Positions 4,023 to 56,070 of a stretch of 64,000 nucleotides of DNA are shown here, piece after piece. This DNA comes from Terebella lapidaria (Eukaryota > Annelida > Polychaeta > Terebellida > Terebellidae), in contig OX424563.1 of assembly GCA_949152475.1 (NCBI GenBank), forward strand, positions 22,045,001 through 22,109,000. Reading direction: 5' to 3'. Numbering within the stretch: the first letter of the stretch is position 1; the number at the start of each line of letters is the position of its first letter. The translations under genes were made by a program, and so were the position numbers. The notes beneath the pieces were generated by a model, which searched no databases, had not been told where the DNA came from, and saw only the letters and a program-made list of their open reading frames with translations.

Positions 4023-4905
4023 ATGACATCAATTTACCTCACACCCTTAAGAGCATGCAATCGCCTGATATTTGTAAATATCAGGCATGTTTACCAACTG
4101 GCTTCAGCATTGTATTCACCGTTGCAACTGCAGTTTCAAATCTTATTTTTTGTCTCCTCGCACAGTTGCCAATATGCAAATGTGGGTATTGTTGAATACA
4201 GTATTGGAATTTTCGATGGTGATTCAAAGTTGCAGCGTGTGGGAGTGTGAATAGAATGTGGATAAACGCAACATGACAATTGAAATATATTCGTTAAAAA
4301 AGTTCACTTCGGTGCAGAGGAACAATGAATATTCTTGGTAAATCAAGTACCTCAATATTTTGCCCTCAATATCTAGGCAACTGTCAATGAGTGAAACCTG
4401 GGTTATAGGCTTAAATTGTATATTCTGATCTAATCTATTGCTGATTTCAATTTCGTCATATTACTCAGCACATATCACTTTGGATACGCACACATAGATG
4501 AATGACATGAACGAATTTCAAAAGTTTAATCTTTTGATGACAATAACGTATATCTTATCTTGTCTTATCTTACCTTACTTTCACATCCAGTATTGCAGCA
4601 TCTAATATCTTCAGAGCGTAATATTGTTTCGTTGGTTTATTTGCATTATGTATAAATGGGTTAGCCATCTAATCATAATGTTGCTGTTTGATATTGGTAT
4701 TATCATCATCATGTTCACGTGCAGGGAGCAACATATATTTTATACCGAACATTGGCAAATGACCAATTATATGAACCACAATTAAACATGTGAAGTTAAT
4801 GATACATACGTTTATACCATGCACATGATCACATCATTCAAATTCACATAGGCAACTAAAGTATGAGACATCTAACTAGAATGTCCATTGTTCCATGACT
4901 TGCAG

Positions 4906-7833
4906 ATTCGCCCGGAGAATGCAAACAGCAGCATGTTGAGGGGCAGTCGTGCGTTACTTCGCAGTAAAAGCATAGATCAACAGATCGAGGAGGAACGCGA
5001 GAAGAGGCAGAAGGAGATACAACTCCTCATCCTCGGTAAGGACGGAAAAAAACCTTGCCAAAGTGAATCTGTCTTATTGATATTCAATGTACGCACACTT
5101 TTCAAGAAACCATGTCCTTCTGGTATCAATTTGCCTGATAGTTGCGGAAATACGCCATACACTTCCAAAATATTCTTAGTATCTTGTGACGAGGGTATAA
5201 TACAGAGCAAGTAAAGTACATAGAATATCATGCAGTAGCACGTAATCAACTGTACAAAAAGCGTACAAATGATGCACTTCTTCAAGATAAGTGAAGCTCA
5301 GGCCTACTCTAGCCCTGAAGACTCAAACTATGTGCTTATGCGTAGTATAATATTTACTCTTCAGGTGGCGCCAGTTCCGGAAAGAGTACATTTATCAAAC
5401 AGCTGAAGCTCTACCATGGCGATGGGTTCCCCGATCACGAGCGAAAACGCCTCGTGGCGAACATATTTGAGAACCTCACAGATGCTCTCAACGTTCTTAT
5501 CGATAACATGACCAAACTGAACTTGGAATATTCTGATCCCTCCAACAAGGTTCGTATGAGATAAATATATATATTTTTTTGCATTTCAAAACTTCTACGG
5601 GTAAAATATCAGATATTACGGTTATATTCAAATAAAGTCGTTCATTCATATAAATATATACATGTGCTGTACCTACAAATGGGTTGTAAAGTTGCTTCCA
5701 CTTCTACAAATAGTATTTGATCGTAATGGTAAAATGCGTGCTCGACAAACCATTAAGAAACTTAACATCCATTCCTGCCAATTACAGACATTCTCAAAGG
5801 AACTACAAAAGGAATTCCCCAGATGGCGCCACTTTCACTTGGCCGCCACAGGGCCGGAAGACGGCGCTGGCAAAGGCAGCTCAGATATTTACTCGAGACC
5901 GATATCAGCCTCTAGGGACTTAAAGGAGAAACCTCCCATACCTGACTACTTGAAAGTCCGAGACCAGCTGGATAGGATCAAAGAGCTGTGGTCGGATCAA
6001 GGCTTACAAAAGTGCTTCAAGTCGGCAGAGCTTCTAGACCCTCCACTCGTCCACGCAGAAATATAGTGAGGAGTGTTCTTTCGTTTTTTTAATGGTTATG
6101 TGACTCATATTTACCGTTTGTGAAACGCTGTAATAATTCGATGTAGTTTAAACGCTGGTACACGCGTTGTGAGGCGTATACACTCGACAATACTGCTCAT
6201 TTCGAGTACGCGCCAATAATCCTCACAATGCTTGTACCAACGTACCAGCAATCAGAAGACATCGGTAATGAATCACGGTATATTTGGTACTGCATCAATG
6301 GGGTGATTGTAGAATAAGGGCTCTTTCGTGTGATTTCGTGTAGCGCACTTCAAATCTTGGCTTTTGCCTACTAATTTAAAACGGTAGATACGAAGAGTTT
6401 GAACAGGTCATTGCAAAAGATGTTTCCTCAGTTTTCTAGAAAATCTGGATCGTCTCTCCCAGAAGGATTATGTGCCCACGATTCAGGACATCTTATTGAT
6501 CCGGAAGTCCACAATTGGCGTTCAAGAACACAGGTTTTCACTGAACAATATTCATTACAGGTATGAGGGCATATCTTTAGTAATACGCTAAATGTAGATG
6601 GAATAAAATGTACACTGAAATTCAGCATGAGAATCTTCTCCAGGAAATAACACAGGTCAGTATAAGATATAACTCACGTGTTACTCGAATCAAATTCAGA
6701 GTGATAGACGTTGCTGGGCAGAAGAACCAGCGGAAGAAATGGATACACTTTTTCGAGGGGGTGACTGCGGTGCTATTCTTCGTAGCCATCAACGGCTACT
6801 GTGAATGTCTGGAGGAGGACACTTCTTTGGTGAGTAATCAACGAGAAACGTGCGCTATAATGTGCTTTTTTAATAAAACAAAATTGGAACGTACATATCA
6901 ATAACGGTATATATATACATGTACATCTAATGTCTCTATCGACACCATAGCCCAGAGAAGCAACCGTAATAACATCAACTCAGTAGCCATTTGGCTTGTG
7001 ATTGGGTACCTATGTACTTGTCATACACCTATTTCCCGGGGTCTGTTCCGGATTTTAAAATTGTTCTAATAAGTTGCTGGGCATTTGTGCACTAATGCCA
7101 TCTGGTGTACAGTAGGCACAACTATAATTACACACTGTCTGCCCCTGATGACGCCAGTGTGGTTTCAGATAAATGTTTGGTCGGGCTTTGTTTCTATTCT
7201 GAAAGTTTTTGATGTTGGGTTTTTTATTGGTATCATTGAAATCTGGTTATCAGCGTCGATAAGGTTGATACCTACATTCACCAACTGTTTTTCAATATGA
7301 GTATTACATTACCAGAATTCGATGCACGACTCAGTGACAACGTTCGATGAGGTGATCAACAACAAATTCCTTGAGAAAACCGATTTTATTCTCTTCCTCA
7401 ACAAGAAAGACTTGTTCGACAAATATATAAAGAACAAGGACTTGACCGTCTGCTTCCCGGAGTATACAGGTAATATTCTACATACCCTGGAACTACCCAA
7501 TTATCACCAAAGTCAGTCAGTGACGAAGTTATATACATTAAACTACAATAAATCCAGTACATAGTGGCATTTTTATATAGCAGAAACCTTCCAATGTTTT
7601 CTGATAACAGTGAATGCACATTACATTATATTAATTAATATCCAGGGCCTAACACAGCAGAAGCCTGCACGAAGTACATTCAAGAATGCTTCAACAAACG
7701 CAAACCAGCCAGCAAGGATATCTACACGCATATCACGTGTGCAATCAACCGTGATCTGATGAAGACCGTTATTGATGACGTCATGCAAATCATCGTACAA
7801 ATCAATCTGCGCATGGCTAGCACGCCTTTGTGA
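4906..7833 (+). CDS. Divergent heterotrimeric G-protein alpha subunit (5' end open)
   Basis: Seven coding exons: 4906-5035, 5365-5549, 5788-6065, 6432-6560, 6700-6829, 7316-7469 and 7646-7833 (TGA). All have GT/AG borders, and the phases agree throughout, giving 397 residues. The product would be a membrane-associated GTPase switch downstream of GPCRs. The order of motifs is canonical: [12 protein letters not shown] at the N-helix, P-loop GGASSGKST, switch I RKST, switch [18 protein letters not shown] guanine specificity, and TCA before the C-terminal helix. Departures from the family: the P-loop is GGASSGKS instead of GAGESGKS, DVGGQ is DVAGQ, the helical domain has a Gly/Ser-rich stretch near its start, and the tail ends NLRMASTPL with no Cys four residues from the end. 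The switch arginine and glutamine are kept. The N-terminal Met-Gly lipidation signal is not in the first exon seen. An in-exon ATG at 4933 is possible, but the acceptor before 4906 argues for an upstream exon. Confidence 0.9.
6153..6242. mobile_element. Small MITE in a Gα intron
   Basis: A 90-bp element lies wholly inside the third intron seen. Its ends are inverted: the left reads cgctggtacacgcgttgtga, and the right, reversed, reads cgttggtacaagcattgtga. The inside is also partly self-complementary (cactcga / tcgagt). No clear target duplication was seen. Confidence 0.55.
6950..7200 (-). repeat. Dispersed repeat C inside a Gα intron (reverse)
   Basis: Read on the minus strand, this intron piece matches 51540-51850 (shared phrases 'aacaaagcccgaccaaa', 'gtcatcaggggcagacagtg', 'aatcacaagcca'). 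It also matches 17560-18110, about 44330-44460, its tandem copy near 46170-46300, and 47700-47840. It is a moderately diverged dispersed family with no coding capacity visible. Confidence 0.65.
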
Positions 7834-8890: not shown

Positions 8891-10955
8891 TTATTCATAA
8901 CCAGCCTCGCTCAGTAACATTGAACATAATCGTTCAATTTCTTTTTCTTCTCGTTTTGGAATTTCCGTTTTCCATTTATCGGCCACTTTCTTGGCGTCTC
9001 TGACGTGTGTACCATAGCCGCCACCTGAACTGCCCTTGGGTGAATTCATTGACTCTTCAGCAAACTCCGCCCATTTTGAAGATGTCGACACATTTGCTGC
9101 AAGTTGTGAAAAAATTTCGTCTGCAACGCGAACAGGATTTTCCACGAGGTCCTCATATCTGACCAATTGCAGGGCGCCGTTGTATTTACTGCGGAGACGG
9201 AGGAACCGGAACCAATCCTCGTTGATGCGTGGACAGAAAGCCCGGGCTTCCACCACGTGACGTTTATCTGTAGCATTAAACATGAGCCTTTTTGTGTGGA
9301 GACGAGAGTTTACTGTAGCACGTGGATCGCGCAGGAAATAAACAACGTTCGCATCCGGGACTTTTACCAAGAAGTCATCAACGTCTTCCATTTTAAGGCG
9401 GTTTGCTTCTATCGCTTGGATTGAAGACTTTTTGCACGATTCCTCAGCTATGTGAAGACATGGCCGCACCAAGTCGATGAGAACAGAATGCATGCACAGG
9501 GCGTGTTGTGAAAATAAATCGACTATCCCACTTTGATTATCGTTTGGAGGCTCATCACCGATTCTGGTCAGAATTTCCTCCCTTAGTTTAGAAGGAGAGC
9601 TCATTTGATCCTCTGATTCCACTAAGATCCGATTTGCAATTTCAATGTAGTAATGACAACGGTTGGTAGTCGCCTCGTCCACGTGTCTACCACATACACT
9701 ACTGAGGATATTCTTGCAGGCGTCATAACGACTTTGTATTTCCGTTTCGGTGTGTGACATGTTGATCAAGCAGGAGTAAAACGGTTTCAAGGCCACTGAT
9801 TGGTTGAGGAAGTAGTGGGACAGCGCCTCTGTTGGCAATTTCCGGTAATTGCACGTTAGTATGTTATCCAGGAATTCAATCAGGGCGTCCTTCTCTTTAG
9901 TCGGTAACGATCTGAAAGAAAGGAAATTGTAAGATGACAGTTTTGCATGTATGATTGGATGGTGTTTTAGGCCACTTTTGTGCACTGTATATTTTAAATA
10001 CAGTGAAGGAAAATAATTATATTACTCGCTTTCTGAAGGTTTCTTCTCTGTCATTTTGGCTATTCACATACCTGTCATACGGTTGCAACTGTTTGTATAT
10101 GTACATATGTGTTTTGGTTTGTTTACTCCTGAGGAATGACAATTTACGTCCATGATGTTGACATTTTAAGAGTCCGTATTCGCACCGAGGATAAATGTGT
10201 TTCAACCATACCGACGGGTTTTGTTCCTGTGGTACAGCAGGTGTAAGGGCAGCATCTCCTTCTGGAAACCGTGGTACGCTGAGTAGAAACTATCCAGTGG
10301 TTCGTACCACAGAGAAGCCCGGAGGTCCCTATTGAAGATCTCCCCGGCAATGCTGGACCCACCTCGCATGTAGGAGAATAGCAGTACTTTAGTCGTGCTC
10401 GTGGGAGACTTCAACCGTGTCTGGGAAATATTAGATGTTACCGTAGCTGATAAATTATATTAATTGGCGAAGTTCGAAATAGTTATTATATAGTTCTTAC
10501 GTAGTTATTACATAGGGCTATTGGCATTGCTATTATTCGTGTCCAGGTGTTAAACACTTAAGAATATATTCAGTTTTACACTCAACAGTTTGCTGATATA
10601 TACACTCACCTCTCTGTTCAGTTTCCATTCCTCTAATGAGTGCTTTCGAAGTTGTATGGCTGTTCCATGGCTACTAGTGTTCATGATATGTTGAACACGA
10701 GTATCTGTAGATATTTCGAGAAGTAATTTGGGATAGAACGAAAAGTTCGGAGCGAATCATATTAAAACCAATGAAGAGTCTGTAGTTGGTCTATTGAATT
10801 TTTAGCAGCAATATTTCTATATCAAATGTAAATTGCGCAGAATACTTACGGATTGCTCCCGGTTTCCTCACAAGCTGTGTTTGTTTATAGATGTAGCAGT
10901 AAACAAACAACAGGAGTACCATACAATAAAACATCAACCGTTTGTATTTCATCAT
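8891..10955 (-). CDS. Carbohydrate sulfotransferase, type II membrane protein
   Basis: Four coding exons on the minus strand: 10955-10850, 10704-10610, 10420-10212 and 9911-8891 (TAA). The borders are GT/AG and the phases close exactly, giving 476 residues. The enzyme would transfer sulfate from PAPS to a sugar hydroxyl of glycans in the Golgi lumen. The N-terminus (MMKYKRLMF then a run of hydrophobic residues to about 25) is a signal anchor. The 5'-phosphosulfate loop is SYMRGGSS at about residues 83-90, and the 3'-phosphate loop is VVYFLRDPRATVNSR near residue 330. ALQLVRYEDLVENP follows, as in the CHST1/3/7-like 6-O group. Length is normal for the family. The second ATG directly follows the first. 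The acceptor sugar cannot be told from sequence. Neighbours are unrelated in function. Confidence 0.92.
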
Positions 10956-21713: not shown

Positions 21714-22844
21714 AGGTTACCGTACCTATGGTCCGATAACCTATTGGCATGGCGTTGCGTCCGTCGTCCGTCGTCCGGCGTCCGTCGTCGTCCGTCGTCG
21801 TCGTCGTCGTCCACATTTTTATCATTTTTGTTTACGGGCGAATTTTTCTGAAATTTTGCACAAAAATACTTAAAAATAATTCAAGAAGGAGGTATTTTTT
21901 AGTTTTTTGATTTTCACATTTTTTTTCAAAATGGCGGCCGTTTTCGATGAAAAATGCCTGATTTTGGACTTTGGCGGCCATTTTCTCAAAATCTGTTCAG
22001 TAACTTTTTTTCTTTTTGTTACATAACACTCCTCATATGTACTCCTATGATGTCTATGAATTTCGTTGCGCTTGAATCGATCGAAGTGGGCCATTTTGGC
22101 CCAAACTCGGCCCAAATGGGACTTTCCCATGTTATATTCTCCTATGCTTTATAATGGGACACAGTATGCCTAATATCTCACTTAATATTGATATCAGAGA
22201 CTAGGAATCAATTGTGGACATATAGGAAATGATATATGCTGAATATTCTCGTGACCTTGAATTTGACCTCTGACCTCAGTTTCAAGGTCAGAGCACAAAA
22301 TGGCTTATATCTCGCTTATTATCGACTCTACAGCTTAGGAATCAATTGTGGACATATAGGAAATGATATATGCTGAATATTCTCGTGACCTTGAATTTGA
22401 CCTTCGACCCCATTTTCAAGGTCATAGGACAAAATGGCTAATATCTCACTTATTATGGATTTTACAGCTTAGGAATCAATTGTGGACATATAGGATGATA
22501 TATGCTGAATATTCTCGTGACCTTGAATTTGACCTCTGACCTCATTTTCAAGGTCACAGGACAAAATGGCTCATATCTTGCTCCTCTATTGACTCTATGT
22601 CTCGGGAATCAATTGTGGACATATAAAAAATGATATACACTGAATATTTTGATTACCTTAAATTTGACCTTTGCCTTCATTTTCAAGGCCACAGCACAAA
22701 ATTGCTAATATCTCTCTGATTATTGAATTTACAACTTAGCAATCAACTGTGGACATGATATATGCTTAATATTATATATGCTGAATATTCTCTTGACCAG
22801 TGACCTGGCTAACATCTAAAATATTAAACATTGTCCGGTAACCT
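21714..22844 (+). mobile_element. Satellite-bearing TIR element, family A copy 1
   Basis: Begins AGGTTACCG and ends GTCCGGTAACCT, so the termini are inverted (AGGTTACCGGAC). The inner part has a CGTCGTCCG-rich run, a segment with AAAATGGCGGCC, then tandem units of about 134 bp containing 'ttgacctctgacctc' and 'ttcaaggtca'. A second right end at about 23165-23176 follows a foreign insert (22862-23157). It lies inside the Transib-like element. Confidence 0.8.
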
Positions 22845-29570: not shown

Positions 29571-30365
29571 ATTTAGGTTAATTTCTTCATGATGACAGCG
29601 ATTCCTTATTATACAAAATCTGCCCTTCTGACCACTGCTGCCCCCGCCCTTCAAATGTGCTTCCGGCATCCCTGCGTATATGCCTAGTTTTGATGTAGAT
29701 TTGAATCTATGTTTCAAGGCTCCTACCGTTTATTTTGATATTCTAGAGTATATCTAAGCATATAACTGAAATGGGGTAGGCGCTGCCCTACGCTTATGTT
29801 ATGACCACGCACACTGCGTGGGGCGCACCTGCCCTTGCAGAAATCGGTTTTTACGACTTTTCGCCCATGGTTTACTGTCCATTTTTTTTGACGACGCCCA
29901 TGATTTTCTACATGAAGAACATTTGGAAGCCCAGATTAATCATGGTATTAGACTGTTTCAAGCTATTTAAACAACATTAATTGAAAACTAAGTGATATAT
30001 TTGGTAAATAATGTATTGCATGCGACTGTAATTGACTAGAAATAATGATATGATCAGATAATAGGGCAATTATAGATACTGGAGTTATCATGTGCTAAAT
30101 AATAACAAGAACGTTGTTCCAATGCCCTGGGGTTATTGCTGTGTTATTATCATGAAAATATCCAATTAAAGCAGACAACAGATTGTTGTTTTATAGTGTA
30201 TTTGTGTGACAAAGCCCCGGGGAAATAAGCCCATGGCTTTTTACGACAAGCCCATGTTTTTTTTTATGATTTGATACATAGTGCCCATGGTTTTCTACAA
30301 CTTAAAATGTAAAATGTTTTCTATAACTTAAAAAATAAAATGGAAATAAATTATGATTGCTTTTT

Positions 30366-30539: not shown

Positions 30540-31138
30540 TAAGGGCTGCTTGAAATTACAAGGACCCCTAATGACAACATATGTGTATACCAACATTTAT
30601 TCAGGAAGTTTCAAAAATGAATCGGTAAGTAAGTGTCAAATCGGTGTAATTCTGAAAATAACATTTGATACAGCTATCACACTCATTTTAGGCAGGCCTA
30701 ACTGCCTTGGACTTTCACATGAATAAATATTATCCAAGGACAAATAAGTATCAATAATCAACCACTGATATCTAACTTACTGGTGCAATGTGAAACAACT
30801 TTCTGAACTTTATATACACACCCTGTCAGCTTTACGAAATGAGAAGATTGAACTGTGCTCTAACAAAGCTGGTGAAGTTGTCACAAGGGGACAACATGGC
30901 TGAACGATAGCTACAACACAAAAGTGAAGCTCCGATAATTCATAGTTGTTTTACTGATGATTTAAGCAGTCTGTGTCAACTTGACCACGTGAATGAGGTT
31001 GGCAATGCATTTGTGACACTTTATGTGGTGACAATTCGTAAGTAATATCGTTCTTGACACTTAAACTACGAACTTGAATGTGATTTTTGGCGATAATTGA
31101 GGCCATTATTTACCATCAAAGGGCAAAAATAGTTACAC
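30540..31138 (+). other. Probable 5' region of the LINE
   Basis: No ORF is seen between the zinc-finger-like exon and ORF1 of the LINE. The 5' end of the LINE must lie in or before this stretch, but no target duplication marks it. Confidence 0.35.
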
Positions 31139-32479
31139 ATGAGTGACTTGGGTTCCCTCGAGAAATACATTGACTCGATCTACATGAGTGTGCTCGACGA
31201 ACCGTTCAGCCCCGACATGTCCAGCGTCGAGAACGATCGATCTAACGAAGTCGTTATTAGCCAGCCGGCAATTACGACATACTTTCAAAGTACCCCCAAT
31301 ATGGATGGTATCAAGAAGCGTAAGCCCAATTCGCCATTATCACTTCCAACTGATGATTCCTCCAGTGGATCTCCCATTGACATATCTACGGTGAAAGACA
31401 CTGTGTCGTCCACATTGGACTCCCTATCCCAATCTCTGATGAATCTAATCACCAAAACCAAAGATGAGATGTTATCAAAGTTGATCGACGTTGATAGCAA
31501 AATTGAGAATATTCAAACGCTCGTCACGGACCAAACAAAAGAAATCAAAGATCTAAAATCAGCCAATGCAAAACTTGCTGCGCGTTCTGCCATACTCGAA
31601 GGTCGTCTGACTCGTGCTGAAAAGGTCATCGATGATCTCCAGGAGCGTAGCTACCAGTCAGAGGCACGAAGCATGCGCGACAACATCGTATTCCACCATG
31701 TCGAGGAAACCCCTTTTGAATCTTGTATCAATGTGGTCTGGAACTTCATGAAAAATGAAATGAAGATTCCAGAAGATACAATGAAAGAAATAACGCTCCT
31801 GAGGGCGCACAGAATGGGAAAACCAGGAACTTATACGAGATCGATCGTGGCGCGATTTGAGCGAAGCAGTGTGAATCGAGTCATGAAACATGCCAAAAAC
31901 CTTAAGAACACTAACTACGGTGTTAATGTCCAACTTCCTCGTGAGCTGGAGGAGCGCAGGAAACAGCTGTTACCTACGTTCAAAGATGCGCGCAGTGCAA
32001 ATAAAAAAGTGGCATGGAAAAACGATAAACTCTTTATTGATGACATAGAACACTGTGTCAAAAGTGACAGAGCACGTGCCAGCTCTACTCAGTGCGATAT
32101 GACCGAGGAGGCGTCCTCCGTCCACCTTGTGCGCGCCCCTCCGAAAATCTACAGCGGCAGTCGATTCCAGGGATCCAAAGCCACTATATCATGTCAGGAT
32201 GACATCCTGCCTAGTCTGTATGCTGTCTACCGTGATACCAGGTCCGCATCCGCCACGCATAACATTTACGCCTACAGGCTCCAGACATCAGATGGCCTGA
32301 TAGAACACTTTGACGACGACGGTGAACACGGCGCAGGAAGGCGAGTTCTCAGGCACATGCAGTCGAACGGGATCATGGACACTCTCGTCTGTGTGACGCG
32401 GTGGTATGGAGGCGTAGAGTTGGGGTCTGCTCGCTTCGACCATATCGAGAATGCAGTCTCTGACGTTCTATCATTGTAA
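31139..32479 (+). CDS. LINE ORF1 protein with C-terminal IMPACT/UPF0029 domain
   Basis: An open frame of 446 residues. An acidic/Ser-rich N-terminus is followed by a coiled coil (about 105-172), an RRM-like core (about 178-245, DNIVFHHVEE ... RSIVARFE) and a basic C-terminal domain (about 250-305, PRELEERRKQLLPTF, VAWKNDKLFIDD), as in LINE ORF1 RNA-binding proteins. Residues 335-446 then form a second, unexpected domain: SRFQGSKA, SATHNIYAYRL, DDDGEHGAGRRVL, VCVTRWYGGVELGSARFDHI. These are the signature blocks of the IMPACT/YigZ (UPF0029) family, closest in wording to animal IMPACT (ATHNIYAYR, RWYGG). Both parts are in one uninterrupted frame. IMPACT proteins bind GCN1 and restrain GCN2; whether this copy does so is unknown. 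ORF2 starts about 150 bp downstream. Confidence 0.93.
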   Translation: MSDLGSLEKYIDSIYMSVLDEPFSPDMSSVENDRSNEVVISQPAITTYFQSTPNMDGIKKRKPNSPLSLPTDDSSSGSPIDISTVKDTVSSTLDSLSQSLMNLITKTKDEMLSKLIDVDSKIENIQTLVTDQTKEIKDLKSANAKLAARSAILEGRLTRAEKVIDDLQERSYQSEARSMRDNIVFHHVEETPFESCINVVWNFMKNEMKIPEDTMKEITLLRAHRMGKPGTYTRSIVARFERSSVNRVMKHAKNLKNTNYGVNVQLPRELEERRKQLLPTFKDARSANKKVAWKNDKLFIDDIEHCVKSDRARASSTQCDMTEEASSVHLVRAPPKIYSGSRFQGSKATISCQDDILPSLYAVYRDTRSASATHNIYAYRLQTSDGLIEHFDDDGEHGAGRRVLRHMQSNGIMDTLVCVTRWYGGVELGSARFDHIENAVSDVLSL

Positions 32480-32633
32480 TTCCACCTATGTCGTGTAAAT
32501 GTGTGTAACTTGCCTTTAAATAAGACGTTCATCCCATTTATTTACGTGACTGTATTTACACCATATACAAATGTTGACAACGATTGTATTTTACAAATGA
32601 ACATATGAAGATGTTTATTACCTTGGAGCGTTT

Positions 32634-35600
32634 GTGTTGTGTACCATACATATGCGCCCAATGTTGTCTCATGTTCGTTGTCCTCTATCCATATTTGTGT
32701 TGTGTACATATTTGTGTTTTGTTGTGTTTTATTGTTCACATTACTATCGTGCTGACATGCACTCGACATATCGCTTGAATATTACATTTGCAATCACGAA
32801 TTATGATTATATTTTAATCTCACAAGCAAACATATTATTAAGGTGTGGGGATGTACATACAAACCCGGGTCCGAACAATTTATCATTTTGTCATACCAAT
32901 ACCAGAGGATTGGTTATCAAATCATGCGACAATCCTATGTACAAAGTTGACGAGCTCTACAGTCAGTTGTGTCTCAAGTATCACTTCGATTTTATATGTC
33001 TAACTGAAACACATTTGAATGAAGCTATTGATTTGACATCATTTTCTGTCCCCGATGATGAGTTTACGCTTTACAGACGAGATCGTAATGGACGACGTGG
33101 CGGTGGCGTCGGTATTTTGGCTTCCAATATTCATCTTCATACGCTAATTAATGACTTGTCTCACCCAATGCTTGAAAATATTTGGATAGAAATTCAGTAT
33201 TCGGGCAAAACGATAATGCTTGGGGTATTTTATAGAGCACCAAACACTGATACTGAGGACGCTCGGGTGTTTCTTGAATCTTTTCAGGATAATATTGCCG
33301 CCGTGCAAGCACGAAAGCCGTCAAGTATAATCATGATGGGCGATTTTAATGACAGGTGTGTTTCCTGGCATTCGGATCATACCAATAGCGATTTGAATAA
33401 TAATTTTTATGAGCTTCTGTTGAACAATGATTTTGTTCAACTAATTGATGAACCTACCAGGGTTGGTACTCATTCTTCGTCCCTACTTGATTTAATTATA
33501 ACGGATTCTCCGGGCTATATGTTGTCGAGCGGTGTGATGACGCCGTTGTCAGATAGTGATCATTGCACAGTATGGTGCAAATTTAAATTCAGTTATTCAA
33601 CTGATAAGTCGTACAAGCGTAAAGTGTATAATTTCAACCAAGCGAATTTTGACTATTGCAATCGCGATATAGCTAATTCTCCTATGTGTGTCCTGATAGA
33701 TTCTGTGGATGACATCGACGACGCTGTTGATATATGGTACAACCTTTTACAGGATAATATTGACAACAATATTTCAAATAAAGTGGTAATAGTAAGACCC
33801 AAAGACAAACCTTGGATGACAAATATTATTAGAAAGTTGATCAGAAAGCGAAATAGATTGTTCAAGAAATTTAAACGAACCAGAAAGCAAAATGATGAAG
33901 CACACTGGAAACAAAGTCGTCGTCAGGTGAAAAATGAAATTAATCTGGCCAAAAAATTGCATTTCGAAAAGCTCTATCGTCAACTAGAAAACCCGAACAC
34001 CGCACCGAAAAAGTATTGGCAAATAGCAAAATCATTCTACGGGAATAAAAAGATGAATCATATCCCTAACTTGGTAGATAACGGTGACACCTTCACAACT
34101 GCATCTGGGAAGGGCGAAATTTTTAACACACATTTTGCAGAACAGTCTAGTCTAGTTATTCCAGTCAATTGTCGTCTTCCAGACTCAGAATTACTTACAG
34201 AAGATACTCTGGATGACATTACGGTAAGTGAATACCAGGTCAAATCTATCATGCAAAAATTAGATGTGAACAAGTCCTGCGGGCCGGATAATATCAGTAA
34301 CATTATTCTGAAAAAATGTGCTGACTCTCTTTCTCTCCCACTGAGTATTATAATGAACAAGTCATTTAGAACTGGAATTGTACCTAAACAGTGGAAGCTA
34401 TCAAATATTACGCCCGTCCATAAAAAAGGTGACAAATCCCTGGTATCAAACTATAGACCGGTTTCCCTAGTGTCTTGTGTGTCTAAAGTTCAAGAAAAGA
34501 TAGTATTCGATGTTTTATACAATTATTGTGTCCGAAACAACATATTAACATGGAGAAACTCGGGCTTCAAGAAGAGGGATTCTGCCATAAACCAAATGAT
34601 TTATATATCGCATCAAATTAATGTTGATCTTGAAGCAGGCAATGACGTCGCGTTAGTATTCTTGGACATTAGCAAGGCCTTCGATAGAGTCTGGCACGCA
34701 GGACTTGTTCATAAACTGAAAACGATTGGTGTAGGGGGTAATTTACTCAGGTGGTTTGTGTCCTATTTATCAGACAGAAAACAACGCGTTGTAATAAATG
34801 GTCAATGTTCCGAGTGGAAATATATTAAAGCAGGGGTCCCCCAAGGATCTATACTTGGCCCGTTGTTATTCCTTATTTTTATAAATGATATTGTAGATAA
34901 TATTAACTCAGAAATTTACTTATTTGCTGATGATACTTTCTTATATAAACCTGTCAAGTCCAATGAAGATAGCTTTCAAATACTTAACAATGATTTAGAC
35001 AAGATTTACGAATGGTCCCGTAAGTGGTTGGTGACATTCAATGCCACAAAAACTGAATACATGGTAACATCACGCAAACGATCAAATGTAGTGAATATAT
35101 CTCCTTCCCCCCAAATCAACGGTACAACAATCACTAGAGTTTATAAGCACAAACATTTGGGCATAACGTTTAATTCCAGAGGAACATGGTCTGATCATAT
35201 TTTGGATGTCAAAAACAAAGCTGCAAAATCGGTCGGTCTCCTTCGACGCATTCAAAGCATTGTTCCAAGATCTTGTTTGGAAATTTTGTATAAATCTTTC
35301 GTAAGGTCTATTTTAGAATACGGGGACGTCATATTCGATTTGTCACCACAAACATACCTTCATGAACTCGATAAAATCCAGAGAGATTGCGCACTAATAT
35401 GTACCGGGGCATATCGGCGGACATCACAAGAGGCTCTCTTAAGGGAACTTGGATGGGAACCTTTATCGTGGCGTCGTCGATGTCATCGACTGTATATCAT
35501 GTACAAAATCATGAATGGACTTGCTCCAGATTATTTGTGCAGCCTTTGTCCTGCTATAACAGGTGATATTATACCATACAATCTTCGTTCTTCTGATTCT

Positions 35601-36143
35601 CTGAGACATTTAACTGGTCGCACTACATCATTTATGAATTCATTTTACCCATCAACTATTCGGGAATGGAATTCACTGGGCGCTGATCTAAAATCTGCAC
35701 CTTCTCTCAACTCATTCAAATTCAGGTTGAGAAAGTTTCAGACTCATAAATGAAATAAATTATTTGCATACGGGTCCCGGCATGAGCGTATTAACCATAC
35801 TAGATTGCGACTTGAACTGAGTGCCTTGAATGCGCACAGATTTGATTATAACTTAATTGATTATTCAGATTGTCCCAACTGCAATGCTGCTTATGAAGAT
35901 ATTTGTCACTTTTTTTTTGACTGTCCGAAGTTTGCTAATGAGAGGAAAACAATGATCGTAGATCTCGCCAACTTGCTAGCCCCGGGGGTTCATTTTTCAT
36001 TGATTATTCCAAATAACTTTGCCGAGAGAAAACAATTTTCCAAACTCTTGTTAAACGGATACGAATCACTCAATTATAATGACAATATAGAACTTTTTAA
36101 GGTAGTCCAAACGTATATTGGGTCCACTCAACGTTTCAAGTAA
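32634..36143 (+). CDS. LINE ORF2: 2A-like leader, endonuclease, reverse transcriptase (one in-frame stop)
   Basis: The frame is open for 1,039 codons to a TGA at 35751-35753. It then continues in the same frame to 36143 with the normal C-terminal part of the family. A hydrophobic leader (about 1-65) ends in the 2A-like peptide LLRCGDVHTNPGP (residues 68-80). The APE-type endonuclease spans about 83-318, with TETHL, GDFND and SDSDH. The reverse transcriptase includes NYRPVSL, FLDISKAFDRVWH, AGVPQGSILGPLLF and FADD (764-767). Past the stop come YGSRHERINHTRLR, LNAHRF and a CPNC...ICHFFFDC knuckle, as in CR1/L2-group elements. The stop separates only the C-terminal knuckle, so the copy looks young. 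Start choice is uncertain; other Met codons precede the 2A. Confidence 0.92.
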
Positions 36144-36378
36144 AATATTATCTTAGGGAAAGGGGGGCTTAAATATATATTCATATATGTATAATGGTTA
36201 TTTTCGATCATGATTGAATTCAACGTTATAAATATTACAAATGTATATAGACGTCTATATGTGCATGTCTAGTGTTGTGTATTATATATTGTATAAATGT
36301 TCCTGCACTTGTTTTGTATAGCACGGAGGAGACCCCCTCGTGGCTACGGCTGTGGGGAATCCTCCTAAAACAAATAAA

Positions 36379-36410
36379 GTTTACATTTACATTTACATTT
36401 ACATTTACAA
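36379..36410 (+). repeat. LINE 3' tail, (TTTACA)n
   Basis: After AATAAAG the element ends in four to five copies of the hexamer TTTACA, then unrelated sequence. A short-repeat tail in place of poly(A) is typical of CR1/L2-group LINEs and marks the 3' boundary. Confidence 0.85.
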
Positions 36411-36799
36411 GGGGTTCCCTTCGTTTTGGGTTCCTATCTCAGCACATTTACTTCTGAACTGACAACAACCATTTGGTATACACTTTAACTGAAACATAAC
36501 ACGAATTTTCAACAGTTTGACTTTCATTTTCACTGATATTGCTTTAGAATGACACCAATTGCTCACCATGTCTGTGTACCGCTTGTAGAAAACCACGGGC
36601 TTCGTCGAAAACCATGGACAGTAGTAGAAAACCATGGGCAAAAAAAGTCTTTAAAAAATAAAACGATTTCTGCAGGGACAGGTGCGCCCCAGTGATGTAG
36701 ATCCATCTTATAGGGTTGAATTTAATTGTGTGTGGAAGGGAGGGAAGGAAGGGTGGAGGGATACTTCCCCACGCACCCTCTTTCGCTACGCTGCCTCTG

Positions 36800-36906
36800 T
36801 AGCTCTTATGGCTTATCACGTACAGCTGGGGATATTTTTGCACTTCAGCAATCAGCTTTTCTTCATCTATTCTGCTCATTTTAACCTTCGTGCTGCTGTT
36901 AGCCAT
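36800..36906 (-). CDS. MADF-domain exon of PIF-like element (truncated)
   Basis: On the minus strand, from ATG at 36906, the protein reads MSRIDEEKLIAEVQKYPQLY, VISHKSYRG, then a matching KEGAW before homology ends near 36800 in low-complexity Pro-rich sequence. This is the N-terminal half of a MADF (Myb/SANT-related, DNA-binding) domain: leucine-rich helix 1, P-L-Y, and the aromatic/AW positions. It begins about 210 bp inside the right inverted end, as expected for the second gene of a PIF-like transposon. The rest of the gene is missing or lies in exons not recognised. Confidence 0.65.
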
Positions 36907-37116
36907 TTTGAAAATGTGTCGTCTGAAGTTTCAAGAAATCGCGCGCGACTTCATGAAAAATAGAACCGTTTTCTATCGCTTCTAATCGCACTGCGTCGCG
37001 CCGCATCGTCCCGCGCCGCGCCGCGTCTGGTGTACATAGTTCCTATCATTTGTATGTGTTTTATATATTCAGTCGCGTCGCGCCGCGCCGCGTCGCGACC
37101 GGTGTACATTGGGCTT

Positions 37117-39375: not shown

Positions 39376-41110
39376 TCAGAACTTCATCCACAGTGACGTC
39401 ACAGTCGCCAGAACGAGGAGAGACGCCGTGTGGGTCACTTGGGGAGCGCCGTTGCAGTAATTTGTATCACAGTAACAAGTTTCGAAGGTATATGGTTGTT
39501 CACCAAACCCATTGCCATGGAAATCGTACCTGAAGCAACCATAAAGTCTCTGTTGGGAGAAGTATTCCGCATGTAGACACTCGCGGGTTACAACCTGGTG
39601 ATCTGCAATGAATAGCACAGCTTTATTAATATCTATATTCGTGTTTCTGTGGTTAATCCGTGGGTATCTGTGTATAAACCGTAGAAAGTTTGCGATCATT
39701 GAATTTTAGGTTACCGGACCACTGGTTATCGAATCTTTGATCCGATAACCTATTGACATGGCGTGGCGTCCGTCGTCGTCTGTGTACATTTTTAGGTTAC
39801 CGGACCGTGGTCCAATTATCTATTGCCGTGGCATTGCGCCCGTCTTCCGCTGTTGTCGTCCGTCTACATTTTCTATCTTCAAAGTTTTTGGTGGAATATT
39901 TCTGAAATTTCAAACAAAAATACCTAAAAGATTCTGAGAGGGAGGTTTTTTTTAGTTCTTTGTTTTTCGATTTAAAAAAAAATAATGGCGGCCATTTTTG
40001 AAGACACAAATTTTGCCAATTTTGGACGTTGACGGTCGTTCTCTCAGAATCTGTTCACAAACATTTTTTCTTATTCACGAAAACCAGTTTTCAAATATAG
40101 AGCTCAGTACCCCCCGAAAGGGACTTCCCATTTTAAATTCTCCTATGCTTTATAATGGAACACATCATTCCTGATATCTCACTTAGTATTGAGATTAGAG
40201 TTTAGGAATCAATTGTGGACATATGGGAAATGATATGTTGAATATACTTGTGACCCTGAGTTTGACCTTTTACCTCATTTTCAAGGTCAGAGCACAAACT
40301 GGCTAATATCTCGCTTATTGTGGGCATATAGGAAATGATTTACATTAAATATTCTGATGACTTTGAATTTGACTTTCGACCTCACTTCAAAGAAAGAACA
40401 CAAAATGGCTAAGACCACGCTTATCAACTTTACAGTTTTGGACTTGATTGAGGAAATGAAGTGATATCTGCTGAATAGTCTCATGGCCTTGAATTTGACC
40501 TTTGACCTCATCTTGTAGGTCACGATAACAAAATGGCTAATATTTAAAATATAAAACATATTATCCGGTGACTTTTCTTAGCCTGGTGACTTTTCTTAAA
40601 ATTTAAGGTCGAATCTTAAAAATAATTCAAGAGAGAGCTATTTTTAAGTTTTTTAGTTTAAATTTTTGTTCAAAATGGCGGCCATTTTTGACGAAAAAAG
40701 GCCAATATTGTAATTTGATGGTAGTTTTCTCAAAATCTTTTCAGTAACTTTTTTTTATTGATGTCAACCCATCATGAATTTGAATTCTTGGTTCAAATAA
40801 GATTTTGTGTATCTGCTTTTCAGTCGGAAAATCACTCTAGATCTGAATATGTATGGCTGGTTTTGGAAATTATAGAATAATATAAAATCCTACTATCAAA
40901 ATGCTCCTGCTTGCAAGAGGCCCACTTACTTTCGTATTTGATCTTAGACTTCGAGCAGCTATCGCAATCCAGATCATAGTCCGTGAACCTCCCGTCAAAA
41001 GGATCTATACAGTCATACGTCTCGTCACACACGTGACACGCAATGGCTTCCGACGTCGTTACCATGGCTACCATAGTCAAGCCAAACAGCATCCAGGCTG
41101 ATCCTCCCAT
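39376..41110 (-). CDS. Quiver/sleepless-like Ly6 protein 3
   Basis: Two exons, 41110-40930 and 39602-39376 (TGA), joined in phase 1; 135 residues. A signal peptide (MLFGLTMVAMVTTSEA) leads to IACHVCDETYDCIDPFDG, DCDSCSKSK, then from the second exon HQVVTRECLH, TCYCDTNYCNGAPQ and a hydrophobic tail (SLLVLATVTSLW) suited to GPI anchoring. This is the quiver/Ly6 cysteine pattern. The 1.3-kb intron holds a family-A satellite element (39708-40572 plus a partial copy at 40590-40790). A conserved upstream flank (family E) follows at 41270-41990. Closely similar to the exons at 48341, 55890 and 60129, so part of a tandem array. Confidence 0.85.
39708..40790 (+). mobile_element. Satellite-bearing TIR element, family A copy 2 (intronic)
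   Basis: Starts AGGTTACCGGACC at 39708 (a second start at about 39795) and carries the CGTCCGTCGTCG run, the 'atggcggcc' segment and diverged 134-bp satellite units. It ends near 'tatccggtgacttttctt' at 40572, followed by a partial second copy to 40790. It lies wholly within the intron of the quiver-like gene 3. Confidence 0.75.
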
Positions 41111-48340: not shown

Positions 48341-51300
48341 TCAGAATATCATCCACAGTGACGTCACAGTCGCCAGCACGAGTCTAGACGCCATGTAGGT
48401 GAGGTGGGGAGCGCCGTTGCAGTAACTTGTAACACAGTGACAAGATTCCACGGTGTATGGTCTTTCATCGAACCCACTGCCATGAAATTTGTACCTAGAG
48501 CAACCAGAATAAAGCTGGTTGCCATCTGCACACCCACGGGTTGCAAGCTGGTAGTCTGCAACGAATAGCACAGCAGTGATAATATCTAGTTATAATTGCG
48601 TGGTTAATTCACGGGAACATACACAGGGCATCCGCAACCAAGTCAGATACACCACATGTAGATTTTAATCATATATTTGGTTCGATAACCTGTTGCCCTG
48701 GCATTGCGTCCGTCGTCCATCGTCGTCCTCCGTCCGTCATCCATGTTGCATTGTCCATGTACCACATTTTTATCTTCCAATTTCAATGCGGGATTTTCTT
48801 GAAATTTGCACAGAAATATCTAAAAAAAACGTTGGTGGCTATTTTCTCAAAATCTGTTCAGACAGTGTTGAGATTATCGTTTCGAAAGATTCACCTCATT
48901 TACCTATGTGAGGTGTATAACTTTCGTTGCCTTTGAATCATCGGCTGCGTGTGGCGATTATTTTCCTTTTTTCGACGGGTCCCAAATTGGACTCTCCCAT
49001 GTTAAATTGTCCCATGCTTCATGATGGGACACATTATTCCCAATATCTCACTCAATATTGAGGTTAGTGTCCAAGAATCAATTGTGGACACAAAGGGAAT
49101 GATATATGCTGAATAGTCCCCTATTCAGCATAAACGTTGAAATCGACCTTTAACCTTATTCTCAAGGTCCCATGATGTTTAATATCTCACTTCTTATCTA
49201 CATTGTAGTTTAGGAACCAAATATGCACCTGTAGAAATGATGAATGTATACGCTGAATTTGACCTCTGACCTAATTTTCAAGGTCAGAGAACAAAATGGC
49301 TAATATCTCTTATTATTAAAATCGCTTATTATTGACTTTACAGCTTAGGAATCAATTGCGCACATATAGGAAATGATATATACTGAATGTTGTCATGACC
49401 TCGAACTTGACCTTTGAGCTCATTGTCAAGGTCAGAGAACAAAATGGCTAATATCTCGCCTATTATTGACTTAAGAGCTTTGGAATAAAATGTGAACATA
49501 TATGAAAAGATGTATGCCGAAACATAAGACCTTATATTTGAGCTTCGAGCTAATTCTCAATTTTCACAGGGGAAAAAATGGCTAGTATGTCACTTGTTAT
49601 CGACCTAACTGCTTAAGAATTAATTGAGCACAAAAAGGAAATGATATATGTTGAATATTTTCATTACCTTGAACTTGGCCTTTGACCTAATTTTCAAGGT
49701 CACAGAATAAAATGGCTAATATCTGGCTTATTATTGACTTCACAGTTTAGGAATCGATCGAGATATGCTGAATATTGTTATATCTTAAACTCTTTTGATT
49801 TTCACCTCATTTTCAAGGTCAGAGATCAAAATGGCCAATGGGGAGGATTAGCAGACATGCGGTATGGGAATATAAACAGAAAACGTTATGACGTCACCGT
49901 TTTCCACCTCGTTCTTGTGGCGTTCCCGCATTTCATAGCTACATTGTACGTAAAAATATTGTGCTGGCGTGCGAAAGTAACCCAAGTAAGGCCATAATCA
50001 TATTGAATTGAAGCCGAAATACGAAAGTGGTTTGTTTCTACTGAACATCTAAAGACAAAAATCAGTCTTGCTTCAAGCGTGTATATTTTTCCGAAGGAAT
50101 GAGGTGGTTAGTTATGGGAATATGTGACAACCGAAAATTCGTTGCCCAGATCGGGGATTGAACCCACGATCTCTGCGTTTTGAGATCGACGCTCTACCAA
50201 GTGAGCTAAAGCGATATCCCACTGGCCAAGCTAATAGGAGCGATGTCACAAATAGAATGAAACAAATGTTACATTTGGTTCACTTGATAGATGTAAAAAA
50301 GCAATAAACATGGGAACATTATTCAAGTATAAAGTATCCGAGCAAACAAAACCGAGTCCATTATCCAATCTCAAATGTCGGTGTCAGGTAAAATCCAGAA
50401 AATTGTGTGGAACTTCATGAACCCCCATATATGACCATAAAGGGGTGAAATCAGGTGTTCCGGAAAGAGTGAGGATTTCCAGCCCCACATGTGGCACCCG
50501 TCATGAATTCCAAAGCATTAACATACGAACAGGTCACGTTGCATACTCGTGACAGATTTTGTGTACTAATGCTGCGTTCAAACCAAATTATGAAGACGGT
50601 GTTTCCCAGTTCACCACCAGTGATCTGCGTTCAATCCACGTTACCAACGGTGATTACCAGCGGTGAAGTGGAGAAGTTTTGAACGCCTCTATTTTCACCG
50701 CCAGTGAAATAGATGGCGGTGGTTAACGATGCTGCGTTCAAACCAAGACGCACCACCTGTGACTCTCGACGTGACCGGCGGTGTGCACCGTCTTCACAAC
50801 TTCGTTCGAAGGCAGCATAATCAACCGGATTGTGATGAGGTCCATAGAATTTCTTGAAAGCAGCTATTAGTCTTGGTAAAACATATCCTTGTCCCAGCAG
50901 TTTGGAGGCGACATAAGACTGTTGCTGCTTAGCAAAGGGAAATTGACTATGGAAAAATTGAAACCGTCACGTTTGTCATACACGCTAGTTGACAGGTTAG
51001 AATCTCCATCAATCTCCAACCTTAGATCTAAATAGTTGGAAAAATTGGAGCAGTCTGTAGTATCTTCAATTTCAAATTCCTTAGGATATATAGCATCCAA
51101 ATAATCACCAAACTTGGGATTCTTCAGTGAAAATACATCATCTATGTATCGGAAAGTGAAATTAAAACTACTATTTTGCTTCTTTGATACTCATTTTTGT
51201 AGATGTTGGATGAAATCTGATTCATATGAGTATAAAAACAGGTCTGCCAATAATAGTGCACAGTTTGTACCCATTGGGATACCAATAGTCTGCTGAAATA

Positions 51301-54300: not shown

Positions 54301-56070
54301 TTAAATAGGCCTAACTCAACAAAATCATCATAGCACTTTCAAGGATAATATTGTGAAAGCTTTTTTGGATGGTTCACCGTAATACACACGCATACAGTAT
54401 CGCAACAAAAATATTGAGCTAAATTTCTGATATTGGAAGAACGATGGGCTTCCTGTTTGCCACCAGAATCTCCACCATGTAAGTCAGGTATAGATAACCA
54501 TAGAAACAGTCTACTATGTCGAATACATACAAAAACGTAATAATGTTACATTAAAAGTTTTGTCATGTCTGTTTTTGCATAATACAGACAATGGACATGA
54601 CGTTTTTGGTTTTTCTTGGGCATAATAAACTGTTAGAGCCCAAAAAGCACATGGCATTAGCAGGTACCCCATTACGAAATATTGACAATTTTTATAGTTT
54701 CCGACATAAAAGTGATTAAATGTGATGAAAAATGTGGTTCTACACTAAAATAGGCGCATAAACTATCATTTTGATTCAGAACATTGGTCAACATTAAAAC
54801 CATTGCAGGTCTGACCTCGATATACATCTATAGATATGTTCTTCTTTGTTTATTATATGGAGAATAATGAACAATTTATTCCATTAAATTAAGGTTATCA
54901 TTCACACAAACGTTCCCACCCCAACATATTTCCGCTGGCTAATATCACGCTTATTATCGACTTTACTGCTTAGGAATCAATTGTGAACATTCAGTAACTG
55001 CTATATGCTGAATATTCTCATGATTTTGATTTTTACCTCTAACATCGTTTCCAAGGTCATATGACAAAATGGCTAATATCTCACTTATTATCGACTTTAC
55101 AGCTTGAGAAGTGAATGTGCACATGTGAGAAATGATATATGCTGAATATTGTCATAATATTGAATTTGACATCTGACCTCTTTTCCAAGGTTACAGAACA
55201 AAATAGCTAATATCTCGTTTATTACAGACCTAACAACGTGAGAATCTATTGTGTCATAGAGTGAATGATATATGTGGAATATTCTGATGACGTTTAATTT
55301 GACCTCTAACTGCATTTTCGAGGTTACGGGACAAAATTGCTGATATCTGTCTTACTGTTGAATTTACAGCTTAGTAAATAATTGTGGACATACAGGGAAT
55401 AATGCATGCTGAAAATTCTCGCGACCTTGAATTTGAACATCGACGTTATTTTCAAGGTCACGGGACCAAATGGCTAATATATAAAATGTAAGACATAGAT
55501 TTCCGGTAACCTTTCTTAGCCCTTGAGCTATTTCTTTGGAGTAAGTCCTTTGTCTTCGTAAGTCAACTTTGTTGAGTGAGCAATGTCAAGGCCAGGTTAC
55601 GGGAAAACAATAGGGCGATAATACCGAATTTCCAATAGTGCAATTAGTGTATAGTCCGTGCGGTGTATTACGGCACTGTTGTCTAAACTCAATGCATATT
55701 AGGTTTGTGACGTTCATGGAAGATTCTTTGGAGATTGTCATCTCGGAAAATGAGGGGGGAATTCAATACAACATATACTTTGATGGTGATGTCGAACCGA
55801 TAATAAATATGGCATTTCTGGACGGCTATACATCAAACTCTCACAAATAATGCTATTAAAATGTTCCTGATTGCAAAGGGCCCACTTACCACCATATTGG
55901 ATTTTGGTCTTGTAGCAAACATCACACTCCAGATCAGAGTCCTTTGACCTCCCATGGAAAGGATCTCCACAGTCAAAGCTGCTTTCACATACGTGACACT
56001 TAATGGCTCCCGTCCTCGTCACCATGGCTACCAAAGCCACGCCACACAGCATCCAGACTGGTCCTCCCAT
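48341..56070 (-). CDS. Quiver/sleepless-like Ly6 protein 4 (7.3-kb intron)
   Basis: First exon 56070-55890, second exon 48555-48341 (TGA), phase 1; 131 residues if joined. The first exon gives a signal peptide (MLCGVALVAMVTRTGA), IKCHVCESSFDCGDPFHG and CDVCYKTK. The second gives YQLATRGCADG, CSRYKFHG, SCHCVTSYCNGAPH and a hydrophobic tail (LVLATVTSLWMIF). Cysteine pattern, exon lengths (first exon 181 nt, as at 41110) and phase match gene 3. The intron is exceptionally long because it holds family-A elements (48675-49845, 54935-55530), a SINE head, a MITE, Penelope-like pieces, a hairpin and a minisatellite. The second exon could also serve the first exon at 60318. Pairing is inferred from order and phase. 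Confidence 0.75.
48675..49845 (+). mobile_element. Satellite-bearing TIR element, family A copy 3 (intronic)
   Basis: The left side has 'ggttcgataacctgttgcc' and the CGTCCGTCGTCC run. It is followed by six or more diverged ~134-bp units with 'ttgacctctgacct' and 'ttcaaggtca'. It begins about 120 bp beyond the second exon at 48555. Confidence 0.75.
50141..50219 (-). repeat. tRNA-derived SINE head
   Basis: On the minus strand it reads like a tRNA, with a box A (TAGCTCACTTGG then TAGAGC) and a box B (GGTTCAATCCC) at normal spacing. The anticodon arm pairs with an 8-base loop and the acceptor ends pair poorly, so it is not a good functional tRNA. The body would run towards lower coordinates to about 49980. 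Confidence 0.6.
50570..50817. mobile_element. PIF/Harbinger-type MITE
   Basis: 248 bp with inverted ends (TGCTGCGTTCAAACCAA; reversed right end TGCTGCCTTCGAACGAA) matching over about 32 bp to GAAGACGGTG. Flanks are TAA on both sides (50567-50569, 50818-50820), the TWA target of PIF/Harbinger. An inner copy of 'gctgcgttcaaaccaa' lies at about 50732. Non-coding. Confidence 0.85.
50866..51530 (-). mobile_element. Penelope-like retroelement fossil, RT part
   Basis: On the minus strand, short readable stretches match the palm and thumb region of Penelope-like reverse transcriptases (for example YLDLRLEIDGD and VYDKRDGFNFSIVNFP). The copy is clearly broken, with several breaks, and partial, and appears moderately old. 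Related upstream pieces are at 53620-54082 in the same orientation. Confidence 0.65.
51540..51850 (+). repeat. Dispersed repeat C copy
   Basis: Matches 17560-18110 and, reversed, 6950-7200: 'aatctattaccaccaata', 'acaaagcccgaccaaat', 'aagtacctaatcacaagcca'. It abuts the Penelope-like fossil and could be its flanking or untranslated part. Confidence 0.6.
51944..52056. repeat. Near-perfect long hairpin
   Basis: Arms of about 48 bp start GTCAGGGAGAATGTAACTCG and end, reversed, GTCAGAGAATGTAACTCG, with only two or three differences. The loop carries its own GGGGCGAAGCCCC. A smaller inverted pair (tagattcgtaactacgaatcta) follows at about 52088-52111. Confidence 0.9.
52500..53260. other. Unassigned stretch with weak ORFs
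   Basis: Two overlapping plus-strand frames near 52877-53268 are open for about 90 codons each but show no domain and no clear splice context. Otherwise nothing is recognised. Confidence 0.3.
53320..53530 (+). repeat. Minisatellite, ~80-85-bp unit, about 2.5 copies
   Basis: Units contain 'gtgtagattcgtagatcaga', 'tctacagttaaatctaca', 'tttgtgt' and 'atctacatttggt.ggtatc'. 'agattcgtag' is also the core of the hairpin at 51944-52056, so the two may belong to one element. Confidence 0.7.
53620..54082 (-). mobile_element. Penelope-like retroelement fossil, N-terminal part
   Basis: Minus-strand phrases (DPVVADSLLSIQKYV, SLYWIPNVH, YKQKYIPGSASYSTKALS) match the region ahead of the palm in Penelope-like reverse transcriptases. 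Broken, with several breaks. It may belong with 50866-51530, separated by later insertions. Confidence 0.6.
54430..54680 (+). repeat. Dispersed repeat G, copy 1
   Basis: Reversed copy of 62490-62735. Shared phrases include 'acgtaataatgttacatta', 'caatggacatgacgttttt' and 'gcccaaaaagcac'. About 250 bp, non-coding. Confidence 0.75.
54935..55530 (+). mobile_element. Family A copy 4 (satellite part and right end)
   Basis: About four diverged 134-bp units followed by 'ttccggtaacctttcttagcc', the family's right end. The left CGTCC-rich part is missing. It lies about 360 bp from the first exon at 55890, in its intron. Confidence 0.7.

Follow-up and report, generated by a model that had tools for sequence, protein, structure and literature searches.

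The window, a stretch of 64,000 nucleotides from the genome of the annelid Terebella lapidaria, contains a full-length LINE insertion, the parts of which are given in Table 1. An ORF2 with endonuclease and reverse transcriptase domains (Pfam) marks it as an APE-type LINE, and its dispersed copies, simple-repeat tail and target-site repeat are further LINE features; this repeat is 5–8 nucleotides long, its first three letters possibly belonging to the tail. We take the element to resemble members of the L2/CR1/Jockey superfamily. An in-frame TGA at 35751–35753 interrupts ORF2 in the window, and a Cys-rich end continues in the same frame. The nearest copies, on contigs C8 (99.3–99.6% DNA identity) and C11 (97.4–97.6%), are both broken in ORF2, and the copy on C11 is broken in ORF1 too.

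Table 1. Features of the window, with the LINE insertion and its parts
Feature	Position	Strand	Basis or remark
LINE insertion	30891..36409	+	homology to C8/C11 copies starts at 30891/30892; tail stops at 36409
Target-site repeat, 5' copy ACAAGGGG	30883..30890	.	matches 36407-36414
Target-site repeat, 3' copy ACAAGGGG	36407..36414	.	shares three letters with the tail
ORF1, 446 aa (446 codons)	31139..32479	+	open reading frame
Coiled coil, residues 82-178	31382..31672	+	helix in predicted structure model
RRM-like core and CTD-like stretch, residues 179-318	31673..32092	+	limits set by the authors; modest-confidence model
UPF0029/IMPACT domain, residues 340-444	32156..32470	+	PF01205, E 9.1e-26
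ORF2 as open here, 1039 aa	32634..35753	+	frame ends at in-frame TGA
ORF2 endonuclease domain	32961..33563	+	PF03372, E 3.1e-10; PF14529, E 2.1e-11
ORF2 reverse transcriptase domain	34419..35078	+	PF00078, E 1e-32
Cys-rich end, in ORF2 frame beyond the stop	35754..36143	+	weak zf-RVT match, below cut-off
(TTTACA)5 tail	36380..36409	+	simple repeat
Host gene traces (sulfotransferase, G-protein alpha, Quiver/Ly6-like)	8891-10018, 4876-5211, 5605-6063, 39376-39696	-, +, +, -	sulfotransferase over its cut-off, the others below theirs

The original prediction, that a LINE ORF1 is here fused to an IMPACT/UPF0029 domain, was borne out: ORF1 is a real frame, and the UPF0029 profile matches its end significantly and is covered as a whole, with 90.4 bits against a curated cut-off of 27 (Table 1). 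Chance is excluded as the source of this match. The nearest solved structure to the window domain is an IMPACT homologue, and a profile built from 16 LINE domains finds that structure at E 2.1e-29 and the two YigZ-type proteins at 5.2e-07 and 3.4e-05. Twelve columns are invariant across 16 domains of all the designs described below, including the DDGE block (D59–E62), R87 and W88, and the DDGE and R-W/Y-x-G-G motifs of the LINE domains align with those of 6bqi, 2cve and 1vi7. A two-residue insertion in the DDGE block is present in both YigZ fragments compared, and absent from fungal IMPACT and from all 71 LINE domains.

As to an L1-like (type II) layout in the rest of ORF1, the coil is predicted, and the RRM-like core comes from a model of modest confidence with tied structural matches. 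An alignment with 22 relatives shows the RRM-CTD stretch of the window to be conserved. By sequence, Tnp22 is neither among the Pfam matches of the window ORF1 nor among the 25 families listed for 26 members. Searched against the PDB, the RRM-CTD profile gave a single hit, a GTP-binding protein at E 0.013, and an ORF1 profile without the UPF0029 domain matched only coiled-coil proteins, including a LINE-1 ORF1p coil at E 0.03.

We searched the assembly to which the window belongs (762 Mb, 438 contigs) for further occurrences. All 150 places that were scored for UPF0029, of 381 candidates, exceeded the Pfam cut-off, and the window ORF1 as a query gave 101 matches, 29 of which span from residue 9 or earlier to residue 443 or later. 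Of 150 RRM-CTD matches, we checked the 84 strongest and 38 of the remaining 66 (122 in all) for a UPF0029 domain downstream, using domain places gathered by hand. Among the 84 strongest, the domain follows directly in 77; four show part of it and three none. Of the 38 weaker matches, 19 have the domain, and the other 19 have none among the domain places listed. Both sets of exceptions count against the explanation that we prefer below. The 41 ORF1s sampled, including that of the window, form 26 clusters at 80% DNA identity. Four pairs of copies (L139/L140, L139/L145, L141/L142 and L146/L147) are 99.6–99.9% identical across 5.5–6.0 kb, and open frames of 453–467 (ORF1) and 1197–1235 residues (ORF2) are present in L139, L140, L141, L142 and L147; L145 has an ORF2 like that of its near-copies and a shorter ORF1 frame (430). 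Endonuclease and reverse transcriptase are present in L139, L141 and L147. As near-identical copies retain open ORF1 and ORF2, these families probably moved recently.

A fusion confined to the window copy is thus contradicted by the genome-wide places, the close relatives and the young open families, and the domain recurs in other ORF1 designs. That the domain is a functionless passenger, whether a one-off or a decaying fusion, would fit the stop in the window ORF2 and the broken ORF2s of the two nearest copies; its presence in 77 of 84 close relatives, its being kept open in young families and a dN/dS near 0.09 in two more diverged pairs (see below) leave this explanation with next to no probability. 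In viral contigs, three protein scans found no relatives. A motif pattern occurred in six stretches of viral contigs and in at least 119 of genome contigs; when ORF1, its domain and ORF2 were compared with the retrieved motif stretches by tblastn, the matches were at chance level only (best E 0.024).

UPF0029 frames fall into several designs. T1, the kind found in the window, consists of coil, RRM-like core, CTD-like stretch and UPF0029; in T1far, a distant branch of T1, a tail is often added past the domain (L192, L194, L197, L200). In T2, the order is PHD, coil, UPF0029, GDSL/SGNH esterase and CCHC (L174, L182, L186), one member (L181) having no PHD in its frame, and in T3 it is PHD, coil, esterase, UPF0029 and CCHC (L188), with variants that lack CCHC in the frame (L178), lack a PHD match (L179) or start at the esterase (L183). 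T4 consists of UPF0029, esterase and a long tail (L196, L199, L201); L196 has extra sequence ahead, and L199 and L201 are cut at the edge of the locus. By Pfam, GDSL exceeds its cut-off in L174, L178 and L188 and falls below it in L179, L181, L182, L186, L199 and L201; PHD exceeds its cut-off in L186 and falls below it in L174, L178 and L188; and UPF0029 is the only match in L196. For the CCHC fingers, and for the esterase blocks in L183 and L196, we relied on inspection by eye or on a simple motif.

An endonuclease lies downstream in T2 (L180 with L206), T3 (L178, L179, L183) and T4 (L207). While T1 endonucleases are 49–62% identical among themselves, they share mostly 21–29% with those of T2, T3 and T4, apart from short matches to L180; those of T2 and T3 are related (31–52%), and that of T4 matches neither, the T2 and T4 sequences compared being partial. 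These distances indicate that the domain occurs with at least three distant ORF2 lineages. In T1far, no ORF2 was seen in the 767–833 bases that follow ORF1 in L192, L197 and L200, and these could be elements with ORF1 alone or with a long gap ahead of ORF2.

When 40 sampled ORF1s were compared with that of the window over five segments (the linker left out), UPF0029 was the best conserved of these in 35 (one tie), the exceptions being L160, L168, L169, L170 and L172. Between families, 61–70% of the domain residues are kept in L136–L155 and L171. A dN/dS comparison across copies had been proposed. In the L161/L165 domains, 8 nonsynonymous and 21 synonymous changes correspond to a dN/dS of 0.09; L178/L190, a pair of another design, has the same ratio, but its dS is high (1.5). 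Summed over the six youngest pairs, there are 18 nonsynonymous and 12 synonymous changes, as expected for copies decaying after insertion, so that constraint would be visible over long times only. Pairs with dS under 1.2 are few (nine) and mostly near-identical copies, some with ratios near 1; a pooled dN/dS across 14 pairs was discarded because the pool included saturated pairs. From the few usable pairs, the domain looks to be under selective constraint. Taken together, LINE ORF1s with an IMPACT-type domain are common, conserved and shuffled among designs.

As to the origin of the domain, no host IMPACT gene was located in this genome with a fungal IMPACT query, the pattern DDGETAAG or an RWD search. 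The query, a fragment of 104 residues, gave 150 listed places of 343 candidates, and the pattern had no match. Two short exon-like places were considered as host IMPACT and dropped, closer reading having shown that they resemble the T3 LINE domain. In the domain tree, T1far, T2, T3 and T4 each form one side of a branch, the deep order being unsupported. Neither a single clade of all LINE domains (p-AU 0.19) nor a grouping of T1 with T1far (p-AU 0.15) was rejected in a tree of 48 sequences, from which 25 near-copies and an E. coli fragment had been removed out of 74. In a first tree, fungal IMPACT stood beside T2/T3 with a support of 73, both trees holding one fungal IMPACT. One capture followed by shuffling and several captures are both possible readings of these trees, and a host IMPACT gene, as suggested earlier, is a candidate source.

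The likeness to IMPACT and Yih1 lies in a homologous UPF0029 ancient domain without the YigZ insertion (passages of PMC4503747 and PMC7140605), and the difference in its setting, a LINE ORF1, and in the RWD domain, which was not found in LINE ORF1s: Pfam gave no RWD match for the window ORF1 (up to E 10) or for 20 other UPF0029 frames (up to E 0.01), and a genome search for RWD gave seven places, none of them, as judged by eye, near the UPF0029 places listed. According to portions of the same two papers (PMC7140605, PMC4503747), the RWD domain of yeast Yih1 inhibits the starvation response when overexpressed alone, substitutions in it reduce Gcn1 binding, and it is the RWD part that competes for Gcn1, the role of the ancient domain being called unknown. 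As RWD is the part of IMPACT that binds GCN1, the earlier suggestion that the LINE uses the domain to restrain GCN2 is not supported as stated. An ORF1p that binds GCN1 and restrains GCN2, so that translation continues under stress, would agree with the IMPACT-type homology of the domain and with the smallest Yih1 stretch reported to bind actin, Gcn1 and ribosomes, which includes the linker beyond RWD (a passage of PMC4503747), and in mouse, L1 ORF1p reportedly co-opts PRKRA, eIF2-alpha phosphorylation being lowered (an excerpt of PMC10289378); since RWD, the carrier of the known Gcn1 competition, was not found in the scanned ORF1s, we consider this distinctly improbable. The mouse report does keep a stress-related role plausible. 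A broader proposal is that LINEs of this animal lineage acquired an IMPACT-type domain, in one capture or in several, and that shuffling spread it over three or more deeply divergent LINE lineages. There it would act against the host's translational stress response, as a retrotransposon-encoded modulator, without RWD, of ribosomes or of the integrated stress response. This proposal appears unlikely to us.

Among known systems, the type II (L1-like) ORF1s of L2/CR1-lineage LINEs share the coil, the RRM-like and CTD-like parts and an ORF2 with endonuclease and reverse transcriptase (sections of PMC4120745); however, Table 1 of that survey of 448 Jockey-superfamily elements has no UPF0029 among the ORF1 domains, and the window ORF1, unlike type II ORF1s, has no Tnp22 sequence match. 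Esterase (SGNH) ORF1s, such as that of zebrafish ZfL2-1, share a coil and a GDSL/SGNH-like esterase with T2–T4 (sections of PMC3905857), to which T2–T4 add UPF0029 and T2/T3 also PHD and CCHC, whereas the window ORF1 has no esterase match. A precedent for a preserved foreign domain is provided by LINEs with a viral-type helicase domain, but there the helicase, an unrelated domain, is located in ORF2, and the elements are from insects (parts of PMC5563155). In the literature searched, which left Repbase, Dfam and most subscription journals outside its scope, we found no earlier description of UPF0029/IMPACT in a LINE ORF1. The UPF0029 papers listed do not, judging by their titles, deal with mobile elements, and neither UPF0029 nor PF01205 appears in the main text of PMC12062965, the subject of which is transposon domains within host genes.

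From the evidence above, the domain almost certainly belongs to ORF1p as a standing component in many LINE families of this genome, being the best-conserved part in most T1 ORF1s sampled and present in several designs with distant ORF2s. Its conservation and its recurrence across designs suggest a job in how these elements copy themselves. We read it as a selected and shuffled ORF1 module, most likely one for docking a host protein. The coiled coil would make ORF1p a multimer, the RRM/CTD part (or the CCHC fingers of other designs) would hold the element RNA, and several UPF0029 copies displayed on the particle could bind a conserved host protein, the likeliest candidates belonging to the machinery touched by IMPACT/Yih1 (ribosomes, GCN1, actin); docking would then allow the particle to be translated, protected or moved. 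We regard UPF0029 as a putative docking domain only tentatively, and give the whole explanation, a standing ORF1p domain plus a docking role, a little less than an even chance.

Loops on one side of the ancient domain carry its invariant features (as a passage of PMC4503747 describes), which we count in favor of docking. Net charges bear on the same question. The UPF0029 domain of the window ORF1 is acidic, with a net charge of −4, and its neighbors, the RRM (+5) and the CTD (+4), are basic. Such an arrangement agrees better with the binding of protein than of RNA; together with the failure to find RWD in the scanned ORF1s, this is why we prefer protein docking and put a direct effect on GCN2 low. 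Median charges of the domain are −3 in T1, −1 in T2 and T3, −3 in T4 and +3 in T1far, the weakly basic T1far domain being a point against docking.

The extra nucleic-acid-binding fold that had been suggested as well is possible. The UPF0029 fold resembles domain IV of elongation factor G, and an accessory nucleic-acid-binding or chaperone domain would add grip on RNA or cDNA; the T1far charge and the position next to RNA-binding parts (the RRM-like core in T1, CCHC in T2 and T3) agree with this, but the net charge of the domain is negative in the window and, by its medians, in T1, T2, T3 and T4, and T1, like the CCHC designs, is already provided with RNA-binding parts, which makes such a role, on balance, rather doubtful. 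Alternatively, the domain could serve particle assembly by contacting other ORF1p or ORF2p, with no host partner, as might be suspected from its high conservation, its constant position at the end of ORF1 in T1 and the coiled coil that precedes it in every design (by Pfam, model or eye). Such contacts would, however, have to tolerate both the shifted order relative to the esterase between T2 and T3 and the distant ORF2s, and we consider them distinctly unlikely. The finding matters because no part of a LINE is less well understood than its ORF1 protein, and the UPF0029 ancient domain, too, has no known biochemical role: a domain kept in many LINE families and in several ORF1 designs offers a handle both on what ORF1p needs from the host and on the binding target of the domain. 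Furthermore, caution is called for with annotations of such genomes, since large numbers of their IMPACT-like genes may in fact be LINE ORF1s.

Several minor observations concern the other designs. In 10 of the 14 T2/T3 loci examined (L175, L176, L179, L180, L182, L183, L184, L186, L187 and L188, several of them near-copies), ORF1 ends in TAG, with GGC six bases later, and beyond the TAG an in-phase long frame reaches the endonuclease in most such loci; this end may represent programmed readthrough of an amber stop. At L188:535-2766 (minus strand), one ORF1 frame has a second, partial UPF0029 stretch, its end being repeated internally. Similar UPF0029 frames also occur in two groups of three, at C2:50609505-50619194 and C16:17908475-17931453 (L189, L198), with internal spacings of about 4–5 kb and 11.3 kb; by their appearance, they may be segmental copies of the ends of T1far ORF1s.

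Around the window LINE, inverted arms at 29819–29921 and 36575–36691 are 80–91% complementary, and the LINE may sit inside a terminal-inverted-repeat element; near the 3' arm, a frame on the minus strand (36544–36930) has a weak MADF match, just under the cut-off (E 0.0004). A similar 134-base tandem unit occurs at four places in the window (22166–22798, 49322–49762, 54936–55480 and 63270–64000). Elsewhere in the window, a sulfotransferase match exceeds its cut-off, and the matches to G-protein alpha and Quiver/Ly6-like domains are weak and lie below theirs; these host gene traces (Table 1) fit an animal host.
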